Assembly: GCA_937974575.1 (NCBI GenBank)
Contig: CALJVI010000228.1
Location: forward strand, 1-51,015
Length of the DNA stretch: 51,015 nucleotides
Origin: an uncultured Saprospiraceae bacterium
Lineage (GTDB): Bacteria; Bacteroidota; Bacteroidia; Chitinophagales; Saprospiraceae
Direction of reading: 5' to 3'
Positions 21,912 through 38,500 of this stretch are shown piece by piece. The notes under the pieces are model-generated. The model saw only the letters and a program-made list of their open reading frames with translations, made no database searches and had not been told where the DNA came from. Within the stretch, counting starts at the first letter, position 1. Each line of letters opens with the position of its first letter. Made by a program: the position numbers and the translations under genes.

Positions 21912-23381
21912 TTATGATTTTCTAAATTTTTTAATAGATTTAATCGTTCTTTTGGCAAAGTCTATTTCATGTTTTTCAAAGAAATTGATTCCCCATAATG
22001 CGACTAAAAATAAGCCTAATAAACTGATTTTTATAGTTATACGCATGACTATATCCAAAGGGTTTATTAGAAAAAGCAAGCTAATAAAAATAAGACTAAA
22101 GCCGATCAACCAAGCTACTTTCTTTAGCTCGTACTCCAAAGGGAAAAATCGCATAGATAGCTTGTAGCTATATATCAAAGTGATAAAACTAGAAATAATC
22201 GATGCGATGATGGCCCCGTAATAATCATACTGCGGGATCAATAAGATATTGAGCACCACATTGACCATTAAGCCTACCAAAACGATATTGATATTAAACT
22301 TTGTATTTTTAGTGAAGTGAAGCCCCAGTGTGAAAATATATTGGATCGCCTTAAAAATAAATATAAAACCAATGAGTGGTACCAAGTTAAAGGCATCCCA
22401 ATAGTCGGTATTACTAGCAAAGGTCTTGATCACTTCTTTCGAAAAGAATGAAATGAACAAAGTAAACATCACAACCAGCAAAGTAAAATAAGTCAATACC
22501 TTAGAAATAAATGGCTTGAAATCAGGCTCCTTGTATCTTTTGAAAGCAATAGGTAAAAATCCCAATTGAAACGAAGTAATCAAAAATACATTCGTAACAC
22601 TGGAGATCTTATACCCCAAATTGTATATTCCCAAGTCCCCAAATTCATGAAAGTAGGGTAGGATAAATCGATCAGCCAGCGACAGCAACATCGCAGATAA
22701 AGTAGAAAATACCAAGGGAAACCCATAGTAAGCCATCTCTTTCGCCGCCTTCCCATTGAAGCGATAGCTGAAGTTGGAGGCTAAAAATTTGCTCGTCAGC
22801 AATAACACCAAAGAGTGCCCAACCAGATTACTGACCAGTATCCCTTTTATGCCCCACTGCAGCCACACGATAAGGTATATATTCAGTCCTAGTACAACCA
22901 CCAGTTTGAATAGGTTGATAGAAATAAAAGCAGATGCTTTCTCCTTAAACCGTAAAAACTCCAAAGGTACCTTACTCAATAACTCTATACTGATAGAAAC
23001 AAACAAGAGCTGAAAGAATATGGTATAGTCTACTTTGTCAAAACAGGTCAAAGCAAATTTTTCCGCAAAAGGATAGAGAAAGATATTCATTAATAGAGCG
23101 ATGACCAATAACCCAAGGAAAGACGTAAATAAAATGGATTGTTGTTCCTCCTCTTCTTTAGCATCGGAGCACCATCTGATCATAGCAGTCGGGATCCTAA
23201 AACTCAATACTGCTACCAATATGACTCCGATGGTCTCCAATAGTCCAAGTACTCCATAGTCGTCTATACTAAGATGATCCGTATATATAGGCAGCAATAC
23301 AAATCCGATCACTTTATTAGCGAGATTACCCACACTATAAATGGCCGATTGCTTAAATACGTTCTTAAATTGTCCCTTCAT
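21912..23381 (-). CDS. Polysaccharide flippase (Wzx/MATE-like)
   Basis: 489 aa with ~14 TM; FKQSAIYSVGNLANKVIGFVLLPIYTDHLSIDDYGVLGL. Confidence 0.9.
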   Translation of the reverse strand: MKGQFKNVFKQSAIYSVGNLANKVIGFVLLPIYTDHLSIDDYGVLGLLETIGVILVAVLSFRIPTAMIRWCSDAKEEEEQQSILFTSFLGLLVIALLMNIFLYPFAEKFALTCFDKVDYTIFFQLLFVSISIELLSKVPLEFLRFKEKASAFISINLFKLVVVLGLNIYLIVWLQWGIKGILVSNLVGHSLVLLLTSKFLASNFSYRFNGKAAKEMAYYGFPLVFSTLSAMLLSLADRFILPYFHEFGDLGIYNLGYKISSVTNVFLITSFQLGFLPIAFKRYKEPDFKPFISKVLTYFTLLVVMFTLFISFFSKEVIKTFASNTDYWDAFNLVPLIGFIFIFKAIQYIFTLGLHFTKNTKFNINIVLVGLMVNVVLNILLIPQYDYYGAIIASIISSFITLIYSYKLSMRFFPLEYELKKVAWLIGFSLIFISLLFLINPLDIVMRITIKISLLGLFLVALWGINFFEKHEIDFAKRTIKSIKKFRKS

Positions 23382-23671
23382 GCAATGATGAGTACGGTCT
23401 AGATTTCTTGTGATACTGCGAATAGCACCTTATTATGAATTGTTCATAGATGAGGCCCTCTTTACCCTATATTATTCAACGGAAATAATTTCTCTTTGAT
23501 CTTATAAACAGTCAAATATACCAGTATTTTTATATACGTTCTCGCTCCTCATTTTAGAGGGTAGAAAGACATAAAACGCAAAAACTTAAAACAATATGTT
23601 TCAAAAAGTGAATTATTTGTATTAACTTGATCTTTGTAAGACTATTATTTTAAGCATCAAAATCAATAATT

Positions 23672-24028
23672 ATGACAAATCAGGAAATCGCAAACCGCCT
23701 AGTAGAGCTTTGTAGAGCAGGGGACTACAAGACCTGCTATGAAGAATTATACGCTCCCAATGCTTGGAGTAGAGAGCCTAAAGGTAAAGCTCTAGTAGAA
23801 TTGGCTACAGGAATGGAGGAGATAGCCGAAAAAGGCAAAAAATGGAATGAAGCAATGGAGGCATTTCATGGCTCTAGCATATCGGACCCTATTGTAGCAG
23901 ATGACTACTTCTGTGTCAGTATGATGGTAGACTGTACGATGAAAGGAAAGGAGAGAAGCAAAACAGAGGAATTGTGCATCTACAAAATAGAAAACGGGAA
24001 AATAGTCTCAGAGGAATTCTATTATTAG
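23672..24028 (+). CDS. SnoaL-like / NTF2-fold protein
   Basis: NRLVELCRAGDYKTCYEELYAPNAWSREP...ELCIYKIENGKIVSEEFYY. Confidence 0.8.
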   Translation: MTNQEIANRLVELCRAGDYKTCYEELYAPNAWSREPKGKALVELATGMEEIAEKGKKWNEAMEAFHGSSISDPIVADDYFCVSMMVDCTMKGKERSKTEELCIYKIENGKIVSEEFYY

Positions 24029-24170
24029 TAGAACTCCCAGATAGATTCTGGATTATTTCAAGATTTATATATATATTTGAGCTTGGCTTTAAGCCAAGAA
24101 AGCCGCATGGGCGATCTATTTATAGGTCGCCTTTGCTGGTCTAGGTACTAAGTTTTCTTATAAATAAGAT

Positions 24171-24701
24171 TTACAATACCTGCGCAGCTTCCTTCTTGAT
24201 AGCTTCGAGTGCCTTATCATAAGTCATGTGCTTACGTTCGTCTATCAGTTTGAGCAAGGCCTGTGCATACTCATCAGCTGGCGCATTTCCATCTACCGTA
24301 TCAGATACTAAGTTTACGATATTGATCGTATCATCCTTGGTAAACTTGATGATCTCCCACAGCTTGTTAGATACATATACTTGCTGTGTTACATTATGCT
24401 CATATTCTTTCTGAATAGAGACCATGAGCGCATACCTCAGCGCCTTGCTGTCCATATTGTTTGTCCTCAGGCGGAGTAGGAGAGCAGGTATAGATATACG
24501 CTCACAAAACAAGCAGAGTCTTTCATAGGCTTGCAATCGGATAGGCAAGGCCGCCTCTTGATTTCGCTCCTTGTACTCCAGCATCTTCATTTGATACTGC
24601 TTATCCAAGAATCTCCCCATTATAGTATATACCGTAAAAAATACAATCAAAGCTGGGATCGCCACCTTTATAATATCTAATACTACTTCCATTGCTGTCA
24701 T
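24171..24701 (-). CDS. Membrane-anchored protein of unknown function
   Basis: 176 aa with N-terminal TM followed by a charged cytoplasmic domain. Confidence 0.7.
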   Translation of the reverse strand: MTAMEVVLDIIKVAIPALIVFFTVYTIMGRFLDKQYQMKMLEYKERNQEAALPIRLQAYERLCLFCERISIPALLLRLRTNNMDSKALRYALMVSIQKEYEHNVTQQVYVSNKLWEIIKFTKDDTINIVNLVSDTVDGNAPADEYAQALLKLIDERKHMTYDKALEAIKKEAAQVL

Positions 24702-24859
24702 GTCCTAATCAAATTTGCGCGAAAATAAGCTTTGAGTACCAATTTATAACCGCTTTGAAGAAATAACGTTACATTTTTATTTAAGAACAACTCTCCATGT
24801 TAAAATTTGTTATTTTTATACGGAACCGCCTTTAAGGTGATTTTGTTATAAAAAATGAA

Positions 24860-24867
24860 TATTTTTG
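24860..24867 (+). promoter_or_regulatory. Bacteroidota -7-like box TATTTTTG upstream of the IscA-like gene
   Basis: Matches TAnnTTTG 17 nt before the ATG at 24884; no convincing -33 at consensus spacing. Confidence 0.45.
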
Positions 24868-24883
24868 CATCAAATATATACCA

Positions 24884-25240
24884 ATGAGTGCTATCAAAGA
24901 AACAACTGTAAAGACACCTATTACCCTAACAGACTCCGCTGTCACTGCGCTCAATCGCATTATGAAGGAGCAAAACATAGCTGAGGATCACGGCCTACGT
25001 ATAGGAGTGAAAGGAGGAGGTTGTTCTGGATTTTCCTATTTACTTGGATTTGACAAGCAAAAAGAAAAGGACAATGTCTTTATGATCGGCGATATCAAAG
25101 TGTTCATGGAGAAAGCACACGGCATTTACCTCATAGGTATGGAGATTGACTGGGTAGAAGGGCTCAACAATAGAGGCTTCTCCTTCAACAATCCCAATGC
25201 TACAGAATCTTGCGGCTGCGGCAGTTCTTTCGATGCTTAG
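24884..25240 (+). CDS. Iron-sulfur cluster assembly accessory protein (IscA/HesB/ErpA family)
   Basis: LRIGVKGGGCSGFSYLLGFD and C-terminal ESCGCGSSF (C-GCG motif). Confidence 0.95.
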   Translation: MSAIKETTVKTPITLTDSAVTALNRIMKEQNIAEDHGLRIGVKGGGCSGFSYLLGFDKQKEKDNVFMIGDIKVFMEKAHGIYLIGMEIDWVEGLNNRGFSFNNPNATESCGCGSSFDA

Positions 25241-25281
25241 TTTTTTAATGATACCATCATAAACAGTTTTAGCTCTGATTC

Positions 25282-25331
25282 GGGGCTATCACGATCCTGA
25301 CTCCGGCTACGCCTACATCAGGACGTGACCG
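25282..25331 (+). repeat. Structured 3'-UTR element, copy 1
   Basis: 41/50 identical to 35261-35310; folds CACG-at-CCTGA-ctcc-GGC-tac-GCC-taca-TCAGG-a-CGTG. Confidence 0.7.
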
Positions 25332-25344
25332 CGTCATCCGCTAT

Positions 25345-25385
25345 ACAAAAAAAGCCACTGGAAAAAAACCAGTGGCTTTTTTTGT
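25345..25385. terminator. Bidirectional intrinsic terminator
   Basis: ACAAAAAAAGCCACTGG / CCAGTGGCTTTTTTTGT, 17-bp perfect stem, 7-nt A loop. Confidence 0.93.
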
Positions 25386-25408
25386 GCCGCTACTACCGCT
25401 TATCCCTA

Positions 25409-25443
25409 CGCGCTCCGCTTGTCGAGCTCCAGCTTTCGCTTCC
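25409..25443 (+). repeat. GC-rich intergenic repeat, left copy
   Basis: cgcgctccgcttgtcgagctccagctttcgcttcc; reverse complement recurs at 27804-27839. Confidence 0.75.
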
Positions 25444-25583
25444 GCGTAGGCTTAGAGATACGCTTATTTCATGTCGAAAATTAATTATGATAAAGTCTGA
25501 GTCAATTTAATAGTCTCTTCTAGGATTTTTTTTACTTAGATTTTGAGAATGAAGAGCTGAGGATGTAATAAGAAATGGGATAA

Positions 25584-26240
25584 TCACAATCTACTTCTCA
25601 CAAGTCTTATCTTTCTTTTTATCACAGCGAACATACTTTTCGCTAGTTTGAAAACTTCTGTTGAGCCTTTTGAGGGTCTTCCGTTTTCGTCTGAATCGTA
25701 ATTTATTTCAGCATTAGTAATAGCCTCTTCTATGAAAATCGGATGTCTTCTTGAATCAAATCCACCATCAAAACTTTCATTCACTTTTAGCTTCCAACTT
25801 TTACAAATATCATCAGACTCAAATTTCTCAACTTTTTGGTTTTGATGAAAAAATAACCAAACTTCAAAGCAAGGGTTACTTTCTACAATAAACCAATTTT
25901 GCTTGTCTAGACAATTAGCGCTAATCTGATTTATTTGTTTTTCTCTACTATTAGACTTGTCAGGGTCTGTATCCAAAACAAGCCATACTTCATCATTTTG
26001 TTGTAATGTGAAATTAGATTTATCTCCATGCAATGAGGCAATAGCTAAATCATAGAGACCTTTGGGTGAATTGTTTTCTTCAGGATTTAATTTATTTACC
26101 TCTACTTTTATTCTAGAATCAATTTCTCTAAAATATTGGAAATATTGATACTCCCTTTTCGCTCCTTCACAAAAAATATATAAGCTTTTTGCTTCTCTAT
26201 GAGGTGTCTGTCTTTCAAAAAGCCTATTTATCAAAATCAT
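25584..26240 (-). CDS. RloB-like (TOPRIM-like) protein
   Basis: SLYIFCEGAKREYQYFQYF, VWLVLDTDPDKSN, ESNPCFEVWLFFH; directly downstream of and overlapping an AAA ATPase. Confidence 0.85.
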   Translation of the reverse strand: MILINRLFERQTPHREAKSLYIFCEGAKREYQYFQYFREIDSRIKVEVNKLNPEENNSPKGLYDLAIASLHGDKSNFTLQQNDEVWLVLDTDPDKSNSREKQINQISANCLDKQNWFIVESNPCFEVWLFFHQNQKVEKFESDDICKSWKLKVNESFDGGFDSRRHPIFIEEAITNAEINYDSDENGRPSKGSTEVFKLAKSMFAVIKRKIRLVRSRL

Positions 26241-27576
26241 AATCGTGCCATTTGAGATCTTCTAAATTTGCTAAAAATGGAATAGAGCCATATCTACCAT
26301 TTAGATATCCTTTCCGGATGTCAATAGTTTTGTGCTCTTTAAAATCACTCAATGAGTACAAATCGGTAGAACCATTTAGATCTTTCTCCGCAAACCAAAT
26401 TTCATCTTGCCTAAATATTTCTTGGTCTAGTAAATTAGATTCATGTGTTGTAAATATTAATTGTCCTAGTGTATTCTTGTCTAGTGAGAACTTTTTAATG
26501 AGTTCTTTTATGAGCAGTGGATGTATACTTCTTTCGATTTCATCAACGATATAGACCTTTTCAGATGAAATTACATTTTTGAATGCTGGAACGAAATCTA
26601 ATAGTCTAATTGTTCCATCTGATTCTTCATTCAAATCAAAAAAAGCAGAATTGTTAATTGAAGAATGTTCAATTTTTAAGGTTTTTACCCAAATTATGTT
26701 ATTCTCTTTTACAAGTATTATTTCATCACCACGTCTACTTGTTAGCCCGATCATTTTTCTAGGAGAGTCTTCAACAGCCTTGATCAACTTATCTAGTTCG
26801 TTCTCATTATCCTCACCAAAAAATTCTCGAATGTTCTTTTTTTCCGTTCCCAATGATGTTATTCCAATATTGAAAGAGCGCATCAAATCTTCTGCATACT
26901 TTTTAAATTCACTATCTGTATCAATTTTATGTGCTAAAGCTCTTGGCTTTGAGTCGGGTGTTATAATTTCTAAGGTTTCTGAAAACCATTGGTAGGCTTT
27001 CTTTACGTCTTTCAAGAATTTATTTTCTCTATTTGATAGAAGTTTTAAAACGGGTTCATCGGGCTTTACGAATTCTTCTAACAAGACAGTTTTTAGGACT
27101 TGGCTTTTTTCATCGTTTTCGAACTCATCCAGAAATTTGATTGTGGTAATGTCATCAAGAGTACTTCTTTCAAAAATCAACTCATCCTCTTTTTTTCCTA
27201 AACCAGAGATATATAACTCTTCAGTTAATATCTTTTCTTCGGAAAGGACGATACCGTAATACAATGGTGTATTACCTTGTATGAACTCTACAGCAATAAT
27301 TTGCTCCTTTTGATCACTGAATTTATGCTGGGTGTCTTTTAGTTTAAAAGGAATCTTTTCTTTTGTAACCAATTTTTGAAATTGAAGCAAAGACTTAATT
27401 AAGTTTGATTTCCCTGCACCATTTGCTCCATAAATAGACGAAATTTTGAGCAACTCAAATCCTTCCACGCTATACTTATGGTTTTGTAAAGTTTTTAACC
27501 TCTTATTGGGTATTGTTGAAAATTCTTTTCTCTCCCCAAAAGAGAACATATTTTCTATTACAAATCGTATTAGCAT
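26224..27576 (-). CDS. AAA family ATPase (RloA/AAA_15-like)
   Basis: Walker A YGANGAGKSN, Walker B VYIVDEIERSIHP, IFTTHESNLLD. Confidence 0.9.
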   Translation of the reverse strand: MLIRFVIENMFSFGERKEFSTIPNKRLKTLQNHKYSVEGFELLKISSIYGANGAGKSNLIKSLLQFQKLVTKEKIPFKLKDTQHKFSDQKEQIIAVEFIQGNTPLYYGIVLSEEKILTEELYISGLGKKEDELIFERSTLDDITTIKFLDEFENDEKSQVLKTVLLEEFVKPDEPVLKLLSNRENKFLKDVKKAYQWFSETLEIITPDSKPRALAHKIDTDSEFKKYAEDLMRSFNIGITSLGTEKKNIREFFGEDNENELDKLIKAVEDSPRKMIGLTSRRGDEIILVKENNIIWVKTLKIEHSSINNSAFFDLNEESDGTIRLLDFVPAFKNVISSEKVYIVDEIERSIHPLLIKELIKKFSLDKNTLGQLIFTTHESNLLDQEIFRQDEIWFAEKDLNGSTDLYSLSDFKEHKTIDIRKGYLNGRYGSIPFLANLEDLKWHDYDFDK

Positions 27577-27803
27577 AAATTAACGTGATTTTTTCACGAC
27601 AATATACAAGATTTAGATTAATTATTCAATAACAAGTCCTTATATTTCGCATTTTAGGTGAAAATTTCACGCCTGCTATCTGGCGTACATATTTTATCAT
27701 CCATTTTGCTAATGAGGATTCCTTCATAAGATCACTATTATGGACAGGTGTATATTAGCTCGAAGAGCCCTCATAAAACTTTTGAAAGAACGCCATTTGA
27801 TGT

Positions 27804-27839
27804 GGAAGCGTATAGCTGGAGCTCGGCAAGCGGAGCGCG
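27804..27839 (-). repeat. GC-rich intergenic repeat, right (inverted) copy
   Basis: Reverse complement cgcgctccgcttgccgagctccagctatacgcttcc aligns to 25409-25443. Confidence 0.75.
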
Positions 27840-27942
27840 CTAGAGCCTAGGGGGTGAAGCGGTATACCCCAAAATGGATGGTGGCGGTAGAGACGCATTT
27901 TTTTCTGCGTCTGCATTTGGGGTGTAAGAGCGGAAGACCCGA

Positions 27943-27994
27943 CACCATGAAAAAAAGGGTAGCCCTTTTCCGGCTAGCCTTTTTTTCATAGGTG
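27943..27994 (-). terminator. Terminator of the TonB receptor gene (nearly symmetric)
   Basis: CACCATGAAAAAAAGGgTAGCC cttttcc GGCTAgCCTTTTTTTCATaGGTG. Confidence 0.9.
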
Positions 27995-28013
27995 TAGGCA
28001 CCAAATCAATCTA

Positions 28014-31000
28014 CTATTTGATTTTGTATCTCAGACCCGCATAAATATTTCTTCCGAATATGGGTCCCCAAATTAAGGAACTATCAAAGAACTCAGAATT
28101 TGGATTTTCGGCAGAAAGGATCGGGTTGTCCTGTGTGAAGTTGAGCAAGTTTTCTACACCTAGGTATATATCTAAAGCCTTCCATTTTTTGGTAGCCTGC
28201 ATGTTGATGGTTACGAAATCAGGGGAGTAGTCAGGTAATCTATACTCGGCAGGATTGGTGCTCGTGTTAGGAATCAGTCTGTCTCCCTGCCAGTTGACGG
28301 TAGCATCAAATGCCCACTTGTGTTCAATCTCGTAAGCCATATTGATAAACGCACGCTGTGCAGAAGTAAGTGGCTTGCGAGATAAACCATCCAAATATCT
28401 AGTCTTCACATCATTGAATCTGTATGCAAGACGCAGATCAAAAAACGGAAACAGTTCTGTATCGATCTGAGCTTGTACACTGTGTGAATACGAAGGACCG
28501 TCGAGATTATAGATACTCACAGATTGTGCATCGTGTATATAGTCAACGATGACCTGCGATTCGAAAAACGTGTAATAATAATCAGCACCAAATACGACTT
28601 CCTTGGCACCCACCCGAATAGCCTTGCTCACATTGGCACCAAAGTTCCATCCAATCTCTGGCTGAAACTGATACGGGTAGTCGGCAGGTGCTCCGGGGTT
28701 CCAACGGATCTGACGGTTGCTGGCAAACATACCAATGTTTTCCGCAAAGACAGAAGCAGTCCGCAGTGATCTTCCTGCGGCCAAACGAAATACGGTATCA
28801 TCATTGGGCGCATATCGAAGGTTGGCTCTTGGTGTAAAGAATACTCCATAGCTGTTGTGCAGATCTTGTCTTGCACCAAGTACCATGGTGAATACTTCAC
28901 TAGGCTGGTAAGTATACTCCACAAATACACCCGTACTCACTTCATTGCGCGCAAACTCAGTCGCTAGAACCAATTCGTCAAACTTGTCATATTGAAAACT
29001 GTAGCCTACACGGTACTTATGCTTTGTAGAATTGTTGAGCACATTTTGATAAAGGTAGTTTGCATAAAAGCTGGTTTGCTTAGCGTCATATATTCGAGTG
29101 CCAAAAAGCGCATCTTGATTATGGTGTACTGCAGATAACTGTAGGCCCATACTCGCAAAAGGATTGTCTAGAAATACCTTACCAAACTTTGCCCAGCCTT
29201 CTAAGCGATTGATATTTACGGTGGCTCCCCATAGGCCATCGGCTTTTGGGTCAGGGCTAGCAGCATATCCTACTTGGCCACTTATATTGTCATACTTCGT
29301 GCCCTTGATTCCTGCCTGAAATCGGAATCCGTCATCGCCAATAAATTTCCATCTATGCAATGCAATAAAATTTTGGGACAAAGGATTGTCCAAAAATTTA
29401 TCATTGTTCCTATCGTTTTCAGAAAAGTTTTTCTTTGCATGGAGTAGGGTAGCAGCATACCACTTATCATTGATATCGTGCCTGATATTTACATTCGCTT
29501 CAGTACGTCCCCCTTCATTAGCATATAGATTGACATACAGCAATTCCATATTGCCACATGGTTTCTTGAGCTCAATATTGATTTGTCCAGCAAGGCTTTC
29601 ATAGCCGTTGGCCACAGATCCAGTACCCATATTCAGCTGCATACCTTCTAGCCAAGTCCCTGGGGTAAAAGTGAAGCCATACAGTGCTGCCAAACCTCGT
29701 ACATAAGGCATGTTTTCACGAGTCACTTGTATGTTTGGACCTTCGAGCCCTAGCAGTTGGATCTTACGCGTGCCAGTGATGGCATCCGTAAAACTGACAT
29801 CTACAGAAGGGTTCGTTTCAAAGCTTTCTGCAATATTGCAACATGCTGCTTTCAAAAATTCCTTTTCATTGATGTTTTGCACCTTGATAGGATTGAGGTA
29901 AGATATCTCCGTCGTCCTTTTTCTGTGTACTACTTCTACGGTATTTAGCGTCAGGGCATCTGTCAAAACGATAGATACTATGCTTTCATTTTTCATAGAT
30001 ATAGTATCATTTTGATATCCTACATAGCTCACTTCTAAGTCGTCTACTCCAGGCATACGATTCAGACTGAACTGTCCATCGACATCCGTAACCGTACCAG
30101 AGCTTTGGTCTAGCCATTTGACGGTAGCTCCAATCAGTGGAATCCTATTGCCAGTATCATCTCTCTCGTAGATCATACCTGATACTTCTTCTCTTGAGTC
30201 AACTATTGAATCAGAATTTTCATTTTTCTCCTCGTGTTCTTCACCAGCAGCATGGTCATGACCACTATGATCTTCTTCTTGTTCTGAGCTGGGTGCTACT
30301 GGACCTGCATACTGACAGCAGCCAGGTAGATTAGCATACGCCTCAGGGGAAGCTTTTCGTTTGTTGGTAGCATGTCCTGCATTGGCGATATTCTCATGCA
30401 AAACATTTTTGTCAAAGGTGGTTTTATCTATTTCTACAGTCAGTATTTGTTTTTCGAGATTGTATTGTGCATTGAGCACACCATCGGTGACGAGCGCAAA
30501 GTTTTGTATTCTAGTGGTACACATGCCACAAGCACCTTTTACATGAATCTGTACAGATTTATTACTCTTGTCTTGATCAAGGCTCAAGTCCTGTTCATGA
30601 TCATGTGCTTCTCCTTCTTCTGGGGCGTGATTCTGATCTGATTGATCCTCCTCTGGCGTCAAGCTTGTTTCTGGTGGCCCATCATATTGACAGCAGCCAG
30701 GGAGTTTAGCATATGCTTCGGGAGTAGCTTTTACTTTATTGGTATTGTGTCCAGCTCCAGCTATATTTTCATGCAGTTGATATTTGTCAAAAGTTTTTTT
30801 GTCTACTTCGACAGTAAGTATTTGTCTTTCTAGATCATACTCTGCCTTAAGCACGCCATCGGTGATGATCGCATAATTTTGAATACGTTCGGTACACATA
30901 CCGCATGCACCTTCTACGTGTATTTGAACTTGCTTAGTTTTAGGTCCATCTTGCGCAATCACATGGAATGCAGACAACAAAAGACCTAACATTAAGATGA

Positions 31001-31016
31001 AATGAATACGTTTCAT
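28014..31016 (-). CDS. TonB-dependent receptor with two N-terminal heavy-metal-associated (HMA) domains
   Basis: Signal peptide, two GACGMC HMA units (30675-30929 and 30300-30554), Asp/His-rich linkers, carboxypeptidase-regulatory-like domain (GATVKWLDQSSGTVTDVDGQFSL), plug and outer membrane barrel ending FGRNIYAGLRYKIK. Confidence 0.93.
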   Translation of the reverse strand: MKRIHFILMLGLLLSAFHVIAQDGPKTKQVQIHVEGACGMCTERIQNYAIITDGVLKAEYDLERQILTVEVDKKTFDKYQLHENIAGAGHNTNKVKATPEAYAKLPGCCQYDGPPETSLTPEEDQSDQNHAPEEGEAHDHEQDLSLDQDKSNKSVQIHVKGACGMCTTRIQNFALVTDGVLNAQYNLEKQILTVEIDKTTFDKNVLHENIANAGHATNKRKASPEAYANLPGCCQYAGPVAPSSEQEEDHSGHDHAAGEEHEEKNENSDSIVDSREEVSGMIYERDDTGNRIPLIGATVKWLDQSSGTVTDVDGQFSLNRMPGVDDLEVSYVGYQNDTISMKNESIVSIVLTDALTLNTVEVVHRKRTTEISYLNPIKVQNINEKEFLKAACCNIAESFETNPSVDVSFTDAITGTRKIQLLGLEGPNIQVTRENMPYVRGLAALYGFTFTPGTWLEGMQLNMGTGSVANGYESLAGQINIELKKPCGNMELLYVNLYANEGGRTEANVNIRHDINDKWYAATLLHAKKNFSENDRNNDKFLDNPLSQNFIALHRWKFIGDDGFRFQAGIKGTKYDNISGQVGYAASPDPKADGLWGATVNINRLEGWAKFGKVFLDNPFASMGLQLSAVHHNQDALFGTRIYDAKQTSFYANYLYQNVLNNSTKHKYRVGYSFQYDKFDELVLATEFARNEVSTGVFVEYTYQPSEVFTMVLGARQDLHNSYGVFFTPRANLRYAPNDDTVFRLAAGRSLRTASVFAENIGMFASNRQIRWNPGAPADYPYQFQPEIGWNFGANVSKAIRVGAKEVVFGADYYYTFFESQVIVDYIHDAQSVSIYNLDGPSYSHSVQAQIDTELFPFFDLRLAYRFNDVKTRYLDGLSRKPLTSAQRAFINMAYEIEHKWAFDATVNWQGDRLIPNTSTNPAEYRLPDYSPDFVTINMQATKKWKALDIYLGVENLLNFTQDNPILSAENPNSEFFDSSLIWGPIFGRNIYAGLRYKIK

Positions 31017-31099
31017 ATTGATATGTTATAAAAGCAATACAGCGACTGCTTTTTATTGTAGTAAAAATATATATAGGGTAATTAGGCTAAGGGATTTTC

Positions 31100-31432
31100 T
31101 TAGCAGTTTTGTGGCGGCTGCCAGATTAGATCGTACACTCCTATAGCAAACGGGATTCCGCTATTCAACGGAGAAGTTCTAACAAAAGAGGTAGAATTTT
31201 TGTAGTCATCAGTGTCTATCTTGCTTGTGATCAGAAATGCACTTATACAGCAAGCACATTCACATTGACTAGAGCAAGGTTCGTGATCATCATCGTGATC
31301 TGAGTCCGAGGGACTCTGATCTTCGCAGTCTAGCTGCACGATTTCTTCATGAGAGCAGCAATTATTAGCAAGTGCGTATCCCATATTTGGGAAGGCAACA
31401 AATAATGCTAATATGATGGCTACAATTTTCAC
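31100..31432 (-). CDS. Small exported Cys/His/Asp-rich protein (DUF6660-like)
   Basis: Signal peptide, NNCCSHEE, DSDHDDDHEPCSSQCECACC, C-terminal IWQPPQNC. Confidence 0.75.
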   Translation of the reverse strand: MKIVAIILALFVAFPNMGYALANNCCSHEEIVQLDCEDQSPSDSDHDDDHEPCSSQCECACCISAFLITSKIDTDDYKNSTSFVRTSPLNSGIPFAIGVYDLIWQPPQNC

Positions 31433-31584
31433 TTATTTCTCTAAAACATTGATTAATACAAATATAGTGCAATCTTTTGATGGATGCTCACTTATTGGAT
31501 GTGAAAACCCCAGTGAGTGGTGTACACCTCCTATAATTAACGGTTTTTAGCTCAAAAAGATATCAGAAAGCTACATTATGTTGA

Positions 31585-32793
31585 TTATGTATCCTTTATT
31601 ATGAAGGGTTTTTCCCCTTTAACCATAAATAAATATACAAAACCTAGAAAGGAAACCCCTGCAATGACCCAAAAAGTAAAAGTGAAATTGGAAACATTAT
31701 TTTGGTACAATTCAGCACTCAATAGTGCTCCCAGGCCAATGCCTGCTTCCAGAGCGATGTATACAGTAGCCAATACCTGACCTAGTTTGCTAGGATCAGC
31801 TCTATCTATCGCCCAAGCAAACATAGCAGGTGAGGAGATGCCAAACGAGAATCCTAACAGGCCAGATGCTACAAATAACCAAGTAGCTGTATGGGCATAG
31901 CCCATCAATATCAAAGAGCCTACTACACAAAACAGAGCAACTTTTAAAACAGGTAAACGGCCATAGATATCCGAAACACGACCCGCTATCAATCTAGATA
32001 GAATAGAGGATGCTGTCAGTATTCCAAGATAGGTTCCCTTGTTTTCAATGCCTAGATATTCACATTGATTGGGGACTATGGTGAGCATAGCTCCAAATCC
32101 AAAGTAAAGACAAAAAGTGATGAAGCCAGGAGTCAATCCTGCTGGATGAAAAATTTCATCTTTTTTGAGCATCAGTAGTCTTGGCGAAAACGGTTTCTTG
32201 TCTTTTAGACTTTCTTTCATTCCAAATAAAATCAATATTGAAATTACAGCAACAAAAGAAGATGCAAAAAACATCATATCTATGGAGTAGTTATTAACCA
32301 AGTAACTGCCAAAAGGAGGTGCTCCTGAAGCACCTAGGTTCATAGATACACCCAGTATACCCATAGCTTCACCTCGGCGATGCGCTGGAACTATGTCTGC
32401 GGCATATGCCGTAGCAGCAGTAGGCTTGAAACCAGTGGACATACCATGAAAAAACCTAAGGAGTAAAAATCCAGCCACTCCCGACACAAAGGGATAGAGC
32501 AGGCTGCAGATAATACACATGCCAGTGCCAATGACCATCACTGGGATCCTACCCACCGTATCTGCTAGTTTACCGCTGAATGGTCTACTCAAGCCAGCAG
32601 TTAAGGTAAATAAGGCAATGATTAATCCAATATACTCCTCGCCACCCATTTCGCTTAGGTAAGCAGGTAGCTCAGTTATGATCATACTAAAAGATGCAGC
32701 AAAAAGCGTGTGACTGATACACAAAAGGATGAAGGATCGTGTATAGAGAAATTGATTGAATGTAGTCTTATTTGAGTCCATTTTGCTGCACAA
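31585..32793 (-). CDS. MFS transporter
   Basis: 12 TM; SRPFSGKLADTVGRIPVMVIG, SRLIAGRVSDIYGRLPVLK. Start likely MDSNKT at 32781. Confidence 0.92.
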   Translation of the reverse strand: MCSKMDSNKTTFNQFLYTRSFILLCISHTLFAASFSMIITELPAYLSEMGGEEYIGLIIALFTLTAGLSRPFSGKLADTVGRIPVMVIGTGMCIICSLLYPFVSGVAGFLLLRFFHGMSTGFKPTAATAYAADIVPAHRRGEAMGILGVSMNLGASGAPPFGSYLVNNYSIDMMFFASSFVAVISILILFGMKESLKDKKPFSPRLLMLKKDEIFHPAGLTPGFITFCLYFGFGAMLTIVPNQCEYLGIENKGTYLGILTASSILSRLIAGRVSDIYGRLPVLKVALFCVVGSLILMGYAHTATWLFVASGLLGFSFGISSPAMFAWAIDRADPSKLGQVLATVYIALEAGIGLGALLSAELYQNNVSNFTFTFWVIAGVSFLGFVYLFMVKGEKPFIIKDT

Positions 32794-32913
32794 AGATGGC
32801 TTAAATAATAACTAAAAGTTTACAATCACATCGTCCAGAATAAAATAATTAAAAGACATTTATAGCTTTAAAAAATTAGTTACTTTTAAGCGAAAATAAA
32901 TCAACTACATATT

Positions 32914-34119
32914 ATGTCAAAAGTACTTATCATCGGAGCAGGAGGGGTAGCTCGTGTTACTGCTTTTAAAATGGCTTCTCAAAAGAGAACCTTCTCAGAA
33001 ATCATGATCGCAAGTAGGACAAAATCCAAGTGCGACGCCATAGCAAAAGACATTGCGAAAAAGTATAAACGCAATGATATCAAAACCAAAAAAATCGACG
33101 CAGAGAATGTACCTGCCCTTATACGACTGATCAAGTCTTTCAAGCCAGATGTACTTGTGCATTTAGCCTTGCCTTATCAAGACCTTACCATCATGGAGGC
33201 ATGTCTTGCCACAAAAACACCTTACCTAGATACTGCCAACTACGAGCCCAAAGACGAGGCAAAGTTTGAATACAGTTGGCAATGGGCGTACCATGACCGA
33301 TTTAAGGAGGCCGGTATTATGGCTGTACTAGGTTGTGGCTTTGATCCCGGAGTGACAGGTGTGTTTACTAAGCATGCAGCAAAGCATCACTTTGATGAAA
33401 TGCATTATCTGGATATTGTAGATTGCAATGGCGGAGACCATGGCAAAGCCTTTGCAACCAACTTCAATCCAGAGATAAATATCAGAGAGATCACCCAAAA
33501 AGGGCGTTATTACAAAAAAGGAAAATGGATCGAGACAGAGCCTTTTGCGATTAAGAAAAAATTGACCTACCCCAATATTGGAAAGCGTGACTCCTATCTG
33601 CTTTACCATGAAGAGCTAGAATCTTTGGTGAAGCACTTCCCCAGCATCAAGCAGGCTCGTTTTTGGATGACTTTTGGCAAAGAGTATCTTACACACCTCC
33701 GAGTCATTGAAAACATTGGGATGGCACGTATAGATACGATCAAATATAAGGGCATAGATATTGTGCCACTACAGTTTTTAAAGGAGGTATTGCCCAATCC
33801 TGGTGACCTTGGCGAGAACTACTCTGGTGAGACTTCCATTGGATGTCGTATCAAAGGGGTGAAAAATGGAAAAGCAAAGACGTATTACATTTGGAACAAT
33901 TGTTCTCATCAGGCAGCTTATGATGAAACGGGAGCGCAAGGAGTTTCGTATACCACAGGTGTGCCTGCTATGATTGGAGCTAAAATGATTCTCCAAAAGA
34001 AGTGGAAAGGCAAAGGAGTCTTCAATGTAGAAGAGTTCAATCCTGACCCGTTTCTAAAAGAGCTCAATAAACATGGATTGCAATGGCACGAAAAAGTCAA
34101 TGCTAAATTAGAATTGTAA
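32914..34119 (+). CDS. Saccharopine dehydrogenase family, probable carboxynorspermidine synthase
   Basis: VLIIGAGGVARVTAFKMASQ, LGCGFDPGVTGVFTKHA; next to nspC. Confidence 0.9.
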   Translation: MSKVLIIGAGGVARVTAFKMASQKRTFSEIMIASRTKSKCDAIAKDIAKKYKRNDIKTKKIDAENVPALIRLIKSFKPDVLVHLALPYQDLTIMEACLATKTPYLDTANYEPKDEAKFEYSWQWAYHDRFKEAGIMAVLGCGFDPGVTGVFTKHAAKHHFDEMHYLDIVDCNGGDHGKAFATNFNPEINIREITQKGRYYKKGKWIETEPFAIKKKLTYPNIGKRDSYLLYHEELESLVKHFPSIKQARFWMTFGKEYLTHLRVIENIGMARIDTIKYKGIDIVPLQFLKEVLPNPGDLGENYSGETSIGCRIKGVKNGKAKTYYIWNNCSHQAAYDETGAQGVSYTTGVPAMIGAKMILQKKWKGKGVFNVEEFNPDPFLKELNKHGLQWHEKVNAKLEL

Positions 34120-35252
34120 TGATCGACCAACTTGATTTTGATACTGTTCCACCGCTCTGTTTTATTCAGGACGAGGATGCTTTAGTTAAGAATCTCAGTC
34201 TGATCAAAGAGCTTCGCAAGAATGCAGGTATCAAAATCATTTTGGCACTCAAAGCTTTTGCAAATTGGCACTTTTTCCCTTTGATGAAGCAGTATTTAGA
34301 TGGCGCAACAGCTAGTTCGCTTTATGAAGCAAAGCTGATTTTTGATGAAATGGGTCAGCGTGCGCACACCTATGCAGCAGTCTACGAAGAAGAAGATTTT
34401 GATAAGATTCTTTACTACAGCGATTATCTTACTTTCAATTCTCTTTCTCAATTAGAAAAATATAGAGCGCATTTGAACGATAAGGTCTCCATCGGTCTTC
34501 GTATCAATCCAGAGTATTCCCCTGTCCAAACAGAGTTGTACAATCCCTGTGCTACAGGTAGCCGATTGGGTATTACTTCGGATCTATTACAAAAACTACC
34601 CGAGGGAGTAGAAGGTCTGCACTTCCACGCGCTATGCGAATCAAGTGCCTTGGATTTGGTCAATGTTGTCAAGGCTATAGAAGAGAAGTTTGGCGATATG
34701 CTGTTCTATGCAAAGTGGATCAACTTAGGCGGTGGTCATGCCCTCAATTCTGGAAAATACGATTTAACCAAGCTGATTTTTCTATGCAAAAAACTGAAAG
34801 CTAAATACGACATAGAAGTGATCATGGAGCCAGGCTCTGGCATCTTGTGGAACACGGGCGTACTGGTGACTAGGGTAGAGGATATTGTTAGCGCCAATGG
34901 TATCGATACGCTTATGCTCAATACTTCCTTCACCGCTCACATGCCCGATACATTGGAGATGCCGTACCGCCCCGATATTCTCGGTGCAAATAAGGAGGGC
35001 AATGGAGAATTTCAATATCGCCTTGGCGGTAACAGTTGTCTAGCAGGCGATTTTCTAGAACCTTACGGTTTTTCCGAAGAAGTAGAAGTAGGAGATCGCA
35101 TCGTCTTTTTGGATATGATGCACTATACCACTGTCAAGACCAATATGTTCAATGGTGTCCGTCACCCCGACCTTGGTACTTGGTCACAGGAGAAGGGCTA
35201 TCGCAGCCTCCGTACCTTTTCATACAAAGACTTTCACCGCAGAATGGGCTAG
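34119..35252 (+). CDS. nspC: Carboxynorspermidine decarboxylase
   Basis: PLCFIQDEDALVKNL, ALKAFANWHFFPLM, MEPGSGILWNTGVL, YRLGGNSCLAGDF, YTTVKTNMFNGVRHP. Confidence 0.93.
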   Translation: MIDQLDFDTVPPLCFIQDEDALVKNLSLIKELRKNAGIKIILALKAFANWHFFPLMKQYLDGATASSLYEAKLIFDEMGQRAHTYAAVYEEEDFDKILYYSDYLTFNSLSQLEKYRAHLNDKVSIGLRINPEYSPVQTELYNPCATGSRLGITSDLLQKLPEGVEGLHFHALCESSALDLVNVVKAIEEKFGDMLFYAKWINLGGGHALNSGKYDLTKLIFLCKKLKAKYDIEVIMEPGSGILWNTGVLVTRVEDIVSANGIDTLMLNTSFTAHMPDTLEMPYRPDILGANKEGNGEFQYRLGGNSCLAGDFLEPYGFSEEVEVGDRIVFLDMMHYTTVKTNMFNGVRHPDLGTWSQEKGYRSLRTFSYKDFHRRMG

Positions 35253-35260
35253 TAGGATTT

Positions 35261-35310
35261 GGGGCCATCACGATCCAGACTCCGGCAGAGCCTTCGTCGG
35301 GACGTGACCA
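35261..35310 (+). repeat. Structured 3'-UTR element, copy 2
   Basis: 41/50 identical to 25282-25331, 9 nt after the nspC stop. Confidence 0.7.
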
Positions 35311-35461
35311 GGCTTTTCGCAGCGCGGCCCTACGCATACTCGCCAGGCTATACTCTAGGGCTGGTCTCCACTGTCGACCACTGCTACTATCCTTTGTCCT
35401 TGACTTGCTCGACCTATACGGTCTCGCATTTCCTATTAGGTGCTCTGTTTTAACACAACAA

Positions 35462-35507
35462 AAAAGGTGGTTTCAATAATCGAATATTAAAACCACCTTT
35501 TATTTTA
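35462..35507. terminator. Terminator between convergent nspC and the giant repeat protein
   Basis: AAAGGTGGTTT / AAACCACCTTT with flanking A and T runs. Confidence 0.8.
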
Positions 35508-35525
35508 TACCTAGTACCTAGTACT

Positions 35526-38500
35526 TTACTTCATTAAAGTAACATTACCCTTCAGTATATCTCTAAAGCCATCACGATACTCAAGATCTATATAGTAGAT
35601 GTAGACTCCTACAGGCATCTCCTCATCTTTATATATTCCTTGCCATCCTTCACTAGAATCATTTGGCTGGATATCTTTCTTAAAAAATACTTGTGTTCCC
35701 CACTTATCATAGATCGCAAAAGTATTGATGTTGGTCACTGCATTATCTTTAGCAAAAAGGTAAAATTCATCGTTTGATCCATCTAAGTTAAACGGAGAAA
35801 AAGCATTTGGCACATATACATTTAGATTCCGATCTACTCTTAGTTGTATCTGATCCATAGCCGAACAACCACTATCCAGTGTCACCTCTAGGGTGTACAA
35901 AATATCTATTGGACTAGTGGTAATAGGGTTGAGGCAGTCATCACAGGATAAGCCTGTAGATGGCGTCCATTGAATAGAAGAGATATCATTTGGATCTATA
36001 TTATTTAAGTTGGAACTAAGGTTGACACTATCTCCAACTAGAATTTCTATCTCTTCCATAAGGTCTACTCCGATATCTAGAGCAGGATTTATAATGACCT
36101 CTTGCGCTACTTCACAGCCATTGGCATCTAAAGCAGAAAGTTGGTAGGAGCCAGGCATTAAATCAGCATAATCTATATTGTTGGTGAATGAAATACCTCC
36201 GTCAAAAGAATAAGTATATGGTCCTTCGCCTCCTATGACCTCAGAGATCATTATAGCACCCAAGTCATCACTACATTGTGGATTTTGAGCATCAAAAATC
36301 AAATCAGTAGGTATGTTTTCATTTACAGTAATAAGGACTTCATCTGTAGAAATACATCCGTTATCAGTATTTAATACTTCAAGCGTATATAGGCCTGCTT
36401 CAGTAACTAAGGGGTTTAGCGTACTGTTTCCTTGTGTAATATTTCCATTACCCTGGTCCCAATTGATTTCATAAGAAGCATTTCCAATGAGCTCTGCTTG
36501 TAATTGGTATTCCAGAATATTACACTGAAGTTCAAAATCACTTCCTGCATCTATGTCGGGGGATACGATATCTTGTATTACATTTACCATATCCATACTA
36601 TTGCAGCCATTGTCAAGATTGGTAATCTCCACCATGTATTCACCAGGAGTATCGATTTCCAATTCATTGGTATTTGCATTAGGTATTACATTACCATTTA
36701 GCGTCCAGACGATTTCAGTATTTCCACTATTTGCAGGGATGCTTATAGTAGTAGTAGAGATGTCGCAGTTGAGCATTGCTGGTTGACTCAAAGTCGCCAA
36801 TGGAATAGCATCGTCCTGAGTAACTGCTACAGCATTCATGTCAGAGCAGCCATTGCTAAGATTGGTTACTTGAAGTTGATAGTCACCAGCGATATTCACA
36901 AGAGGGTTCAGGGTGTTTTCACCACTTACAAAATTTCCATTTGTAGTCGACCAAATAAAACTCACTTCGTTTTCATTCAAGCCGTTTAAGTCCCCTGTGA
37001 GCGCTATAACTGGATCTTGACAAGTGATTTCTCCAGAGTTTGCTGATACTACGGTTACGGTTGGAGTGTCTTGATCGACCTCTACAGTCACACTATAGTC
37101 TGCTTCACAGCCATTACTTGGGTCTATGACAAATAGGCTATAGGTGCCCGCCTGATCAACGACCAAATTAGATTCAGCAAGATTGCTATTCAATACATTG
37201 TTGTTAGCATCTAACCATGTATACTCTAAGTTTTGTCCATTCATTTCTACTGCTATCAATTGCGTACTTGTGTTGATACAATCAATTGTCTCAGGTATTT
37301 CAATGGCTACATTCGGCAATTGTCTCAAGTCTTCAACGGTGAGTATTGATTCCGCCATACATCCATTTTCAGAATTGGTGATTTCCAAAGTATATTCTCC
37401 AGGTTCCGTAAATGTGTTTTGCAATATTGTAGCTAGCTCATTTCCATCTACATCTGTCCACGCGTACTGAAAATCTACACCTACACTAGATCCGTTTGCA
37501 TCCACAGTTGCGGTTGGTTCTGGACAAGTCAGATTTGCAGAATTGTCCAAGACGACTACTGGATTTTCTATATCCTTTTCTACATCTATATCAAGCATGC
37601 TGATACATCCATTTACAGTATTCGTTGCAGTAAGTACATAGTTTCCACCTTCGTCCAATTCTGGATTTAGTGAGTTTGCACCATCTATAATATTTCCATC
37701 CAAAGTCTCCCATGTATATTCGTAAGTCCCATTTCCTTGGTTCAAGGCTTGGATGGTTATAGTTTCATTAAAACAATTGATGATGTCCGGATTGTCAATC
37801 ATAACCATAGGAGCCTCCTTGTTTTCTATCACTGTGACGGTTTGCTCTACTTCACAACCACTGCTATTATCGCTCAGTGTAAGGGTGTATGTTCCTGCAC
37901 TATTCACAATAGGATTAAGACCAGTCTCTCCACTGACAATGTTGCCGCCATCATTGCTCCAAGCAATGGAAATATTTGTCCCTTCTGTAGATTGAGATGC
38001 ATCTAGCATGATCTCTTCTTGAGTACAGGTAATTTCTTCGGGTATTGAGATGGCAACGGTAGGTGTATTTTCATCTACATCTACCATAACAGTAGCAGAA
38101 GCGGTACATTGATTTGCTATGGAGGTTACTATGAGTTCGTATTCTCCAGCTTGGTTGACCATTGGACTATTGGTCGTTTCACCGCTTAAGATATTACCCG
38201 TCAGTGCATTCCATTGTAGATCCAATCCAGTCAAGTCAGAGTCGACTCCAAGACTCACTTCAAGGGTTGTACAGCTTAAGTCCTCAACACTTGCAAGTAC
38301 TAGGCTAGGGGCAGTAGTGTCGGCACCGATATTTATAGCGCTTGTACTTTCACAATCATTGTTAGTATTAAAAATGGTTAGGGTATAATTCCCTGGTTCA
38401 AAGATCTCTGGATTAGGGGTATCGTCATTAAAGATATCATTTCCATCATCACTAGACCACTGATAGTTAATTCCACTACCACTAGTCGAGTTACTGGCAT

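Follow-up and report, generated by a model that had tools for sequence, protein, structure and literature searches.

A hairpin that occurs twice in the window, by which is meant the whole 51,015-nt stretch analysed here (contig CALJVI010000228.1 of an uncultured Saprospiraceae bacterium), proved to be one arm of a repeat of about 140-170 nt, present in about 90 copies in the 3.3-Mb source genome. It is a dispersed repeat in which the fold of one strand is kept by selection and which is tied neither to any one gene nor to transcript ends. On balance, we consider it somewhat probable that this is a genus-specific, extended, Flavo-1-type structured repeat, which probably moves as a non-autonomous element by a mechanism that we infer below. 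The first-pass annotation had described the hairpin alone, as a recurrent structured element, mobile or recruited, of transcript ends. Recurrence and structure were borne out, with real covariation among the copies, and so, probably, was the dispersed or mobile nature; the extent had to be revised.

Both hairpins were present as described. The segments 25282-25331 and 35261-35310 were identical at 41 of 50 positions and differed at the other nine, the CACG/CGTG and GGC/GCC pairs being retained in each. A repeat search of the window aligned them at 83% over 54 nt, and a core pattern allowing up to three mismatches was found at these two sites of the window only, where shuffles predicted none. 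Folded alone, the hairpin of copy 1 was clearly more stable than its shuffles (z -3.2 on the + strand, -3.9 on the - strand) and that of copy 2 hardly so (-0.9 and -1.6, respectively); the evidence for structure is the covariation across copies.

A degenerate pattern recovered 15 copies from the source genome (314 contigs, 89.7% complete); the reversed control yielded no copy. A covariance model (CM) of the hairpin built from these 15 copies returned 92 matches in the same genome, 23 of them with a long hairpin of about 65 nt and the others with a shorter one or a different apex; the median likeness of copies to their best match was only about 74%. The same model gave 30-55 matches in each of three congeners. 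Two more congeners and another 55 genomes of the order had no match at E <= 0.01, so that among the genomes searched the hairpin repeat is confined to the genus. Public contigs named Saprospiraceae also carried it. Scanning 85,000 species genomes with a pattern yielded mostly chance matches, clear model matches being limited to Saprospiraceae MAGs, and literature searches on Saprospiraceae repeats, on Bacteroidetes interspersed repeats and with a sequence string found nothing relevant.

When the copies were aligned together with their flanks, conserved sequence was seen to run well past the hairpin. Copy 1 covers 25279-25450, with the - strand as the structured one; its homology with copies C26 and C114 runs from ATTTGGGG to TTCGCTTCCGC between unrelated flanks, and it is 90% identical to C26 across 172 nt. 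Two copies this alike in unrelated surroundings set the ends of the element, which are sharp. In the orientation first noted (+), the order is TTTGGGG, arm 1, CC R N G YY N2 TCCGC, arm 2, CCRCT, N2' A Y C N' Y TTGTC and an optional arm 3. Read on the - strand, the optional arm 3 is followed by the 5' side of a long-range helix (P1), an AGCGG internal loop, the variable arm 2, an AGCGGA loop, the 3' side of P1, arm 1 and GGCCCCAAA. P1 holds arm 2, which may be any hairpin and varies among copies.

In copy 1, the hairpin originally noted is arm 1 (25290-25327, - strand; CACG/CGTG, CCTGAY/RTCAGG and GGC/GCC), as supported by covariation in 15 copies. One side of P1 (GCGTCA, 25331-25336, - strand) is complementary to the other (TACCGC, 25394-25399, - strand, located by the P1 motif scan), the exceptions being C.A and T.C, which become U.G and A.G on the - strand; on rescanning the window this helix scored 45.4, against at most 10.2 in 20 shuffled windows. 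Arm 2, as read from the sequence, is a 17-bp hairpin bordered by A and T tracts (25345-25385, assigned to no strand). It looks like a bidirectional intrinsic terminator. The 17-bp terminator reported after the first hairpin does pair exactly (25345-25361 with 25369-25385), yet it is internal to the repeat and forms the second hairpin there. Arm 3 (CCTACGCG...CGCGTAGG, 25405-25450, - strand), recognized by sequence and alignment, belongs to the long form of the repeat only. Copy 2 (35257-35399, - strand; CM match of 85 bits, P1 found) is a form without arm 3 that ends in TTTGTCC, the end being estimated. Its arm 1 is the second noted hairpin (35269-35306, - strand), located by hairpin comparison and the core pattern, and the P1 scan placed the two sides of its helix, also on the - strand, at 35310-35315 (AGGCTT) and 35388-35393 (TATCCT), with one T.T mismatch. 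The terminator-like hairpin reported after copy 2 exists (35457-35506) but stands outside the repeat, about 150 nt past the noted hairpin. A P1 motif pair also disclosed a third, divergent Flavo-1-like repeat at 27839-27945, in inverse orientation (structured strand +) and with a different arm 1, between an ATPase gene and a TonB-dependent receptor gene. All four of its tested P1 pairs were complementary (score 19.7, against at most 10.2 in the shuffled windows) and its arm-3 sequence was 96% alike to that of copy 1.

For the covariation analysis, the sides of P1 were placed by sequence-only weight matrices in which the variable tested positions were masked; these replaced an earlier regular-expression parse that often picked the wrong 3' site and gave weaker covariation. 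Positions N and N' were complementary in 76 of 79 copies, against a shuffle mean of 24, through all four combinations (G-C 34, A-T 19, C-G 13 and T-A 10). The N2-N2' pair was complementary in 74 of the 79 (shuffle mean 27), as was R-Y (shuffle mean 46). Since shuffles ignore the relatedness of copies, changes were also counted on a tree built without the tested P1 columns, on which N changed at least 34 times. The 22 congener copies behaved likewise, with N-N', N2-N2' and R-Y paired in 20, 22 and 21 of them, respectively. For arm 1, 93% of the cells were paired among 15 copies versus 87% after shuffling, a level reached in none of 500 shuffles, and five pairs displayed two-sided changes. The base pairs of P1 and arm 1 are thus conserved through repeated compensatory change, and the shape of the fold is kept by matching mutations even where the sequence is much changed.

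Individual copies showed further variation. At an orthologous site in two species (L042 and L064), a rare P1 variant, GGA/TCC, replaces the usual G-C third pair, a two-sided change at an otherwise invariant pair. Three copies (L001, L034 and L035) carry AGAGAAAAGGCATGCCTTTTCTCT or a near copy of it in arm 2 while the outer flanking stems differ, and from this subfamily arms seem to be exchanged as modules. Terminator-type arms 2 were present in three copies (copy 1 of the window, C26 and C114), with unrelated hairpins elsewhere, and most arm-2 hairpins had no T run. The subfamily made up of L025 and L028 (copies e1 and e4) and copy 1 of the window has an arm 2 resembling a two-way terminator (AAAAAAAGCCACTGG...CCAGTGGCTTTTTTT in copy 1) and is possibly a dispersed terminator.

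The first-pass annotation had placed the structure on the coding strand. At the position beside N, however, TC faced AC in 34 copies and CT faced AT in 42; in the former 34, a C.A mismatch on the + strand becomes a U.G pair on the - strand, adjoining a G.A or A.G mismatch, and the reverse case was never seen. Folding energies pointed the same way, the - strand folding better in 72 of 88 copies for arm 1 alone and in 69 of 82 for the whole element, and predicted structures contained 115 G-U pairs on the - strand versus 41 on the + strand. The G-U versus A-C pattern and the better folding of the - strand indicate that the structure belongs to the strand opposite to that noted. The same G-U substitutions, together with purine-rich internal loops on one strand, also favor the main rival explanation, according to which the Flavo-1 strand encodes a structured RNA family, either small RNA genes or an mRNA element binding a protein or the ribosome, with selection acting on the RNA and mobility being secondary. 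We regard this as possible but less probable than the mobile repeat.

Gene context was assessed from the longest non-overlapping ORFs of at least 90 aa on stretches around the copies. Outside ORFs were 82 of 88 copies, and the remaining six lay in ORFs of about 100 aa whose reality is doubtful. For the 65 copies with both neighbors called, the arrangement was '++' in 21, '--' in 11, convergent in 20 and divergent in 13, and no orientation bias among these 65 was significant (p 0.11 and 0.30). In 21 of the 65, both neighboring genes run against the structured strand and neither would transcribe it, which, with the mixed orientation, weighs against an RNA family. A similar picture was reported from the transcriptome of Flavobacterium psychrophilum, where Flavo-1 matches fall on either strand of transcribed regions and many fall in none; several 5' transcribed regions nevertheless coincide with Flavo-1, as an RNA family would have it (PMC9723704).

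These placements bear still more directly on the view of the first-pass annotation, namely a + strand element of the 3'-UTR or transcript end involved in mRNA stability, sRNA release or termination. Both window copies do follow a + strand stop (25240 and 35252), but each sits between convergent genes and is just as much on the 3' side of a gene on the - strand (stop at 25584 for copy 1 and at 35526 for copy 2). The median distance of copies was 25 nt from a preceding stop, against 122 nt from a start, which looks as though promoters had been avoided; for copies after a + strand gene, this closeness to the stop, like the terminator-like arm 2 of the three copies mentioned above, would agree with a transcript-end function. 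Against it stand the divergent and '--' arrangements, the lack of significant orientation bias, the poorer pairing of the + strand, the lack of a T run in most arm-2 hairpins and the absence of conservation after iscA (see below). An element of this kind would follow stops in a single orientation, and the repeat did neither consistently. The coding-strand 3'-UTR element was therefore rejected on gene context and strand tests, and we hold it to be very improbable. Of the outcomes that the annotation itself had named as contradicting it, copies untied to stop codons were observed, and a lack of covariation was not.

The window genes themselves deserve mention. Convergent to the iscA-like gene, a gene for an RloB-like protein (PF13707) adjoins one for an AAA_21 ATPase (25584-27576, - strand) in an RloAB-type cassette, possibly a defence pair. 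Before copy 2 on the + strand, a carboxynorspermidine decarboxylase gene (nspC) follows a saccharopine-dehydrogenase-like gene (32914-35252, + strand), the two probably forming a norspermidine/spermidine synthesis pair.

Congener loci ruled out a tie to iscA or nspC. After the iscA orthologue (protein 72-89% identical), no match to the element was found in three congeners, so that the repeat has no link to the IscA-like gene. At the nspC site there was no match in congener G004, and congener G002 had a different variant with the same layout. Two other copies have counterparts at the same site in congeners (e18/L064 and e7/L075); in both pairs arm 2 was replaced, and arm 1 and P1 still paired with changed bases. 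Copies are thus gained and lost, but those that remain in place retain their fold. Compensatory changes of this kind in shared copies point to maintenance at the site no less than to mobility, and count in favor of a structured RNA family. The modest likeness of most copies (about 74%) also weighs against the mobile reading, as does the fact that no target-site duplication was seen by eye.

The relation to Flavo-1 RNA (RF01705; Weinberg 2010, PMC2864571) emerged from the alignment of its model to L001, which recovered a shared A.G mismatch in the helix ccG-A-Uu / aA-G-Cgg, together with the AGCGG loops and the variable hairpin; these features, P1 with its mismatch, the loops and the terminal hairpin, were upheld by the covariation of the 79 copies. 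Within the window, no Flavo-1 match reached the gathering cut-off (42 bits) and none was found in 23000-36000 at E <= 10, while the best match in the source genome scored 41.1 bits. As the cut-off was not reached, the window copies are called a Flavo-1-type variant rather than formal members. Rfam comparison of the window at the cut-off gave only a tRNA; relaxed searches with other families added only sub-threshold, chance matches to miRNA-type hairpin families elsewhere. Nine of 28 Flavo-1 matches in the source genome abutted a hairpin match on the opposite strand, where 0.1 were expected. In congeners G005 and G004, Flavo-1 matches coincided with the same repeat, and two of those checked, G005:C61 (61.0 bits) and G005:C47 (44.4 bits), at L257 and L271, exceeded the cut-off and overlapped a hairpin match on the other strand. 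Flavo-1 matches from other genera of the order were followed, as judged by eye, by different hairpins with ACGCCCAAA or similar at their ends, so a 3' arm seems to be a wider Flavo-1 feature that has no place in the Rfam model. One genome from another family of the order (G037; e.g. L256 and L268) contained 59 Flavo-1 matches at E <= 1e-4 in 6.1 Mb, many over the cut-off; by these counts Flavo-1 is itself a high-copy dispersed repeat.

Under the preferred reading of a mobile Flavo-1-type repeat, the element would spread non-autonomously through a folded single strand, as a DNA or RNA intermediate, recognized by a putative trans-acting enzyme. Mobility or turnover is supported by the 90% identical copies with unrelated flanks and by the congener sites after iscA and nspC, which lack the element or, in G002, hold another variant. 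Any gap between genes may tolerate the repeat as long as promoters are left clear, and the folded strand may be kept as the recognition target of that enzyme or of a host protein. Effects on nearby transcripts, such as those of the arm-2 terminator in three copies, would then be side effects of single copies. The obvious candidate for such an enzyme was a Y1 transposase (RAYT). A further rival explanation, a REP/BIME-like palindrome mobilized by a RAYT and acting as DNA, would account for an intergenic, multi-copy, hairpin-forming repeat with a strand-specific fold; the repeat-bearing congeners G002, G004 and G005 do have Y1_Tnp genes. However, a search of the 89.7%-complete source genome, with its 92 matches, for Y1_Tnp (PF01797) gave none at E <= 0.001, and the RAYT/REP explanation was rejected on this ground. 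Elsewhere, Y1_Tnp presence did not track Flavo-1 copy number: G058 has Flavo-1 copies without Y1_Tnp, and many genomes have Y1_Tnp without Flavo-1. The length of 140-170 nt with a long-range helix also contrasts with the 20-40 nt given for REPs (PMC3733652), and we give a RAYT origin very little credence.

No function has been attached to the Flavo-1 motif since 2010. The copies described here reveal its structured strand, add arms that are missing from the Rfam model and supply about 100 natural variants with compensatory pairs, which makes it directly testable whether it is an RNA gene, an mRNA element or a mobile folded DNA. As a tentative generalization, Flavo-1 and its relatives might be one class of mobile elements with a folded strand in Bacteroidota rather than sRNA genes: P1 and the AGCGG loops would form the fixed core, the arms would be exchanged freely, and a putative enzyme that reads the fold would copy the elements.

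Among known systems, the pneumococcal BOX and RUP-type repeats are likewise small, interspersed and non-coding (PMC3049150); they belong to a different phylum and serve as an analogy only. REP/BIME elements with RAYTs share the short, multi-copy, intergenic and hairpin-forming character, whereas the present repeat is longer and composite, starts with TTTGGGG and had no GTAG/CGTC tag noted at its ends. It departs from the Flavo-1 model by an extra hairpin on the 3' side (arm 1), often by another one preceding, and by the G.A/U.G or A.G/U-A alternatives in P1; Flavo-1 is filed in Rfam as an sRNA gene, which favors the RNA family, whereas here it takes the form of a dispersed repeat. With Flavo-1 it nonetheless has in common the A.G-mismatch helix, the symmetric AGCGG/AGCGGA internal loops with a 2-bp GC helix between them, the variable terminal hairpin, the presence in many copies in Bacteroidota and the same structured strand.
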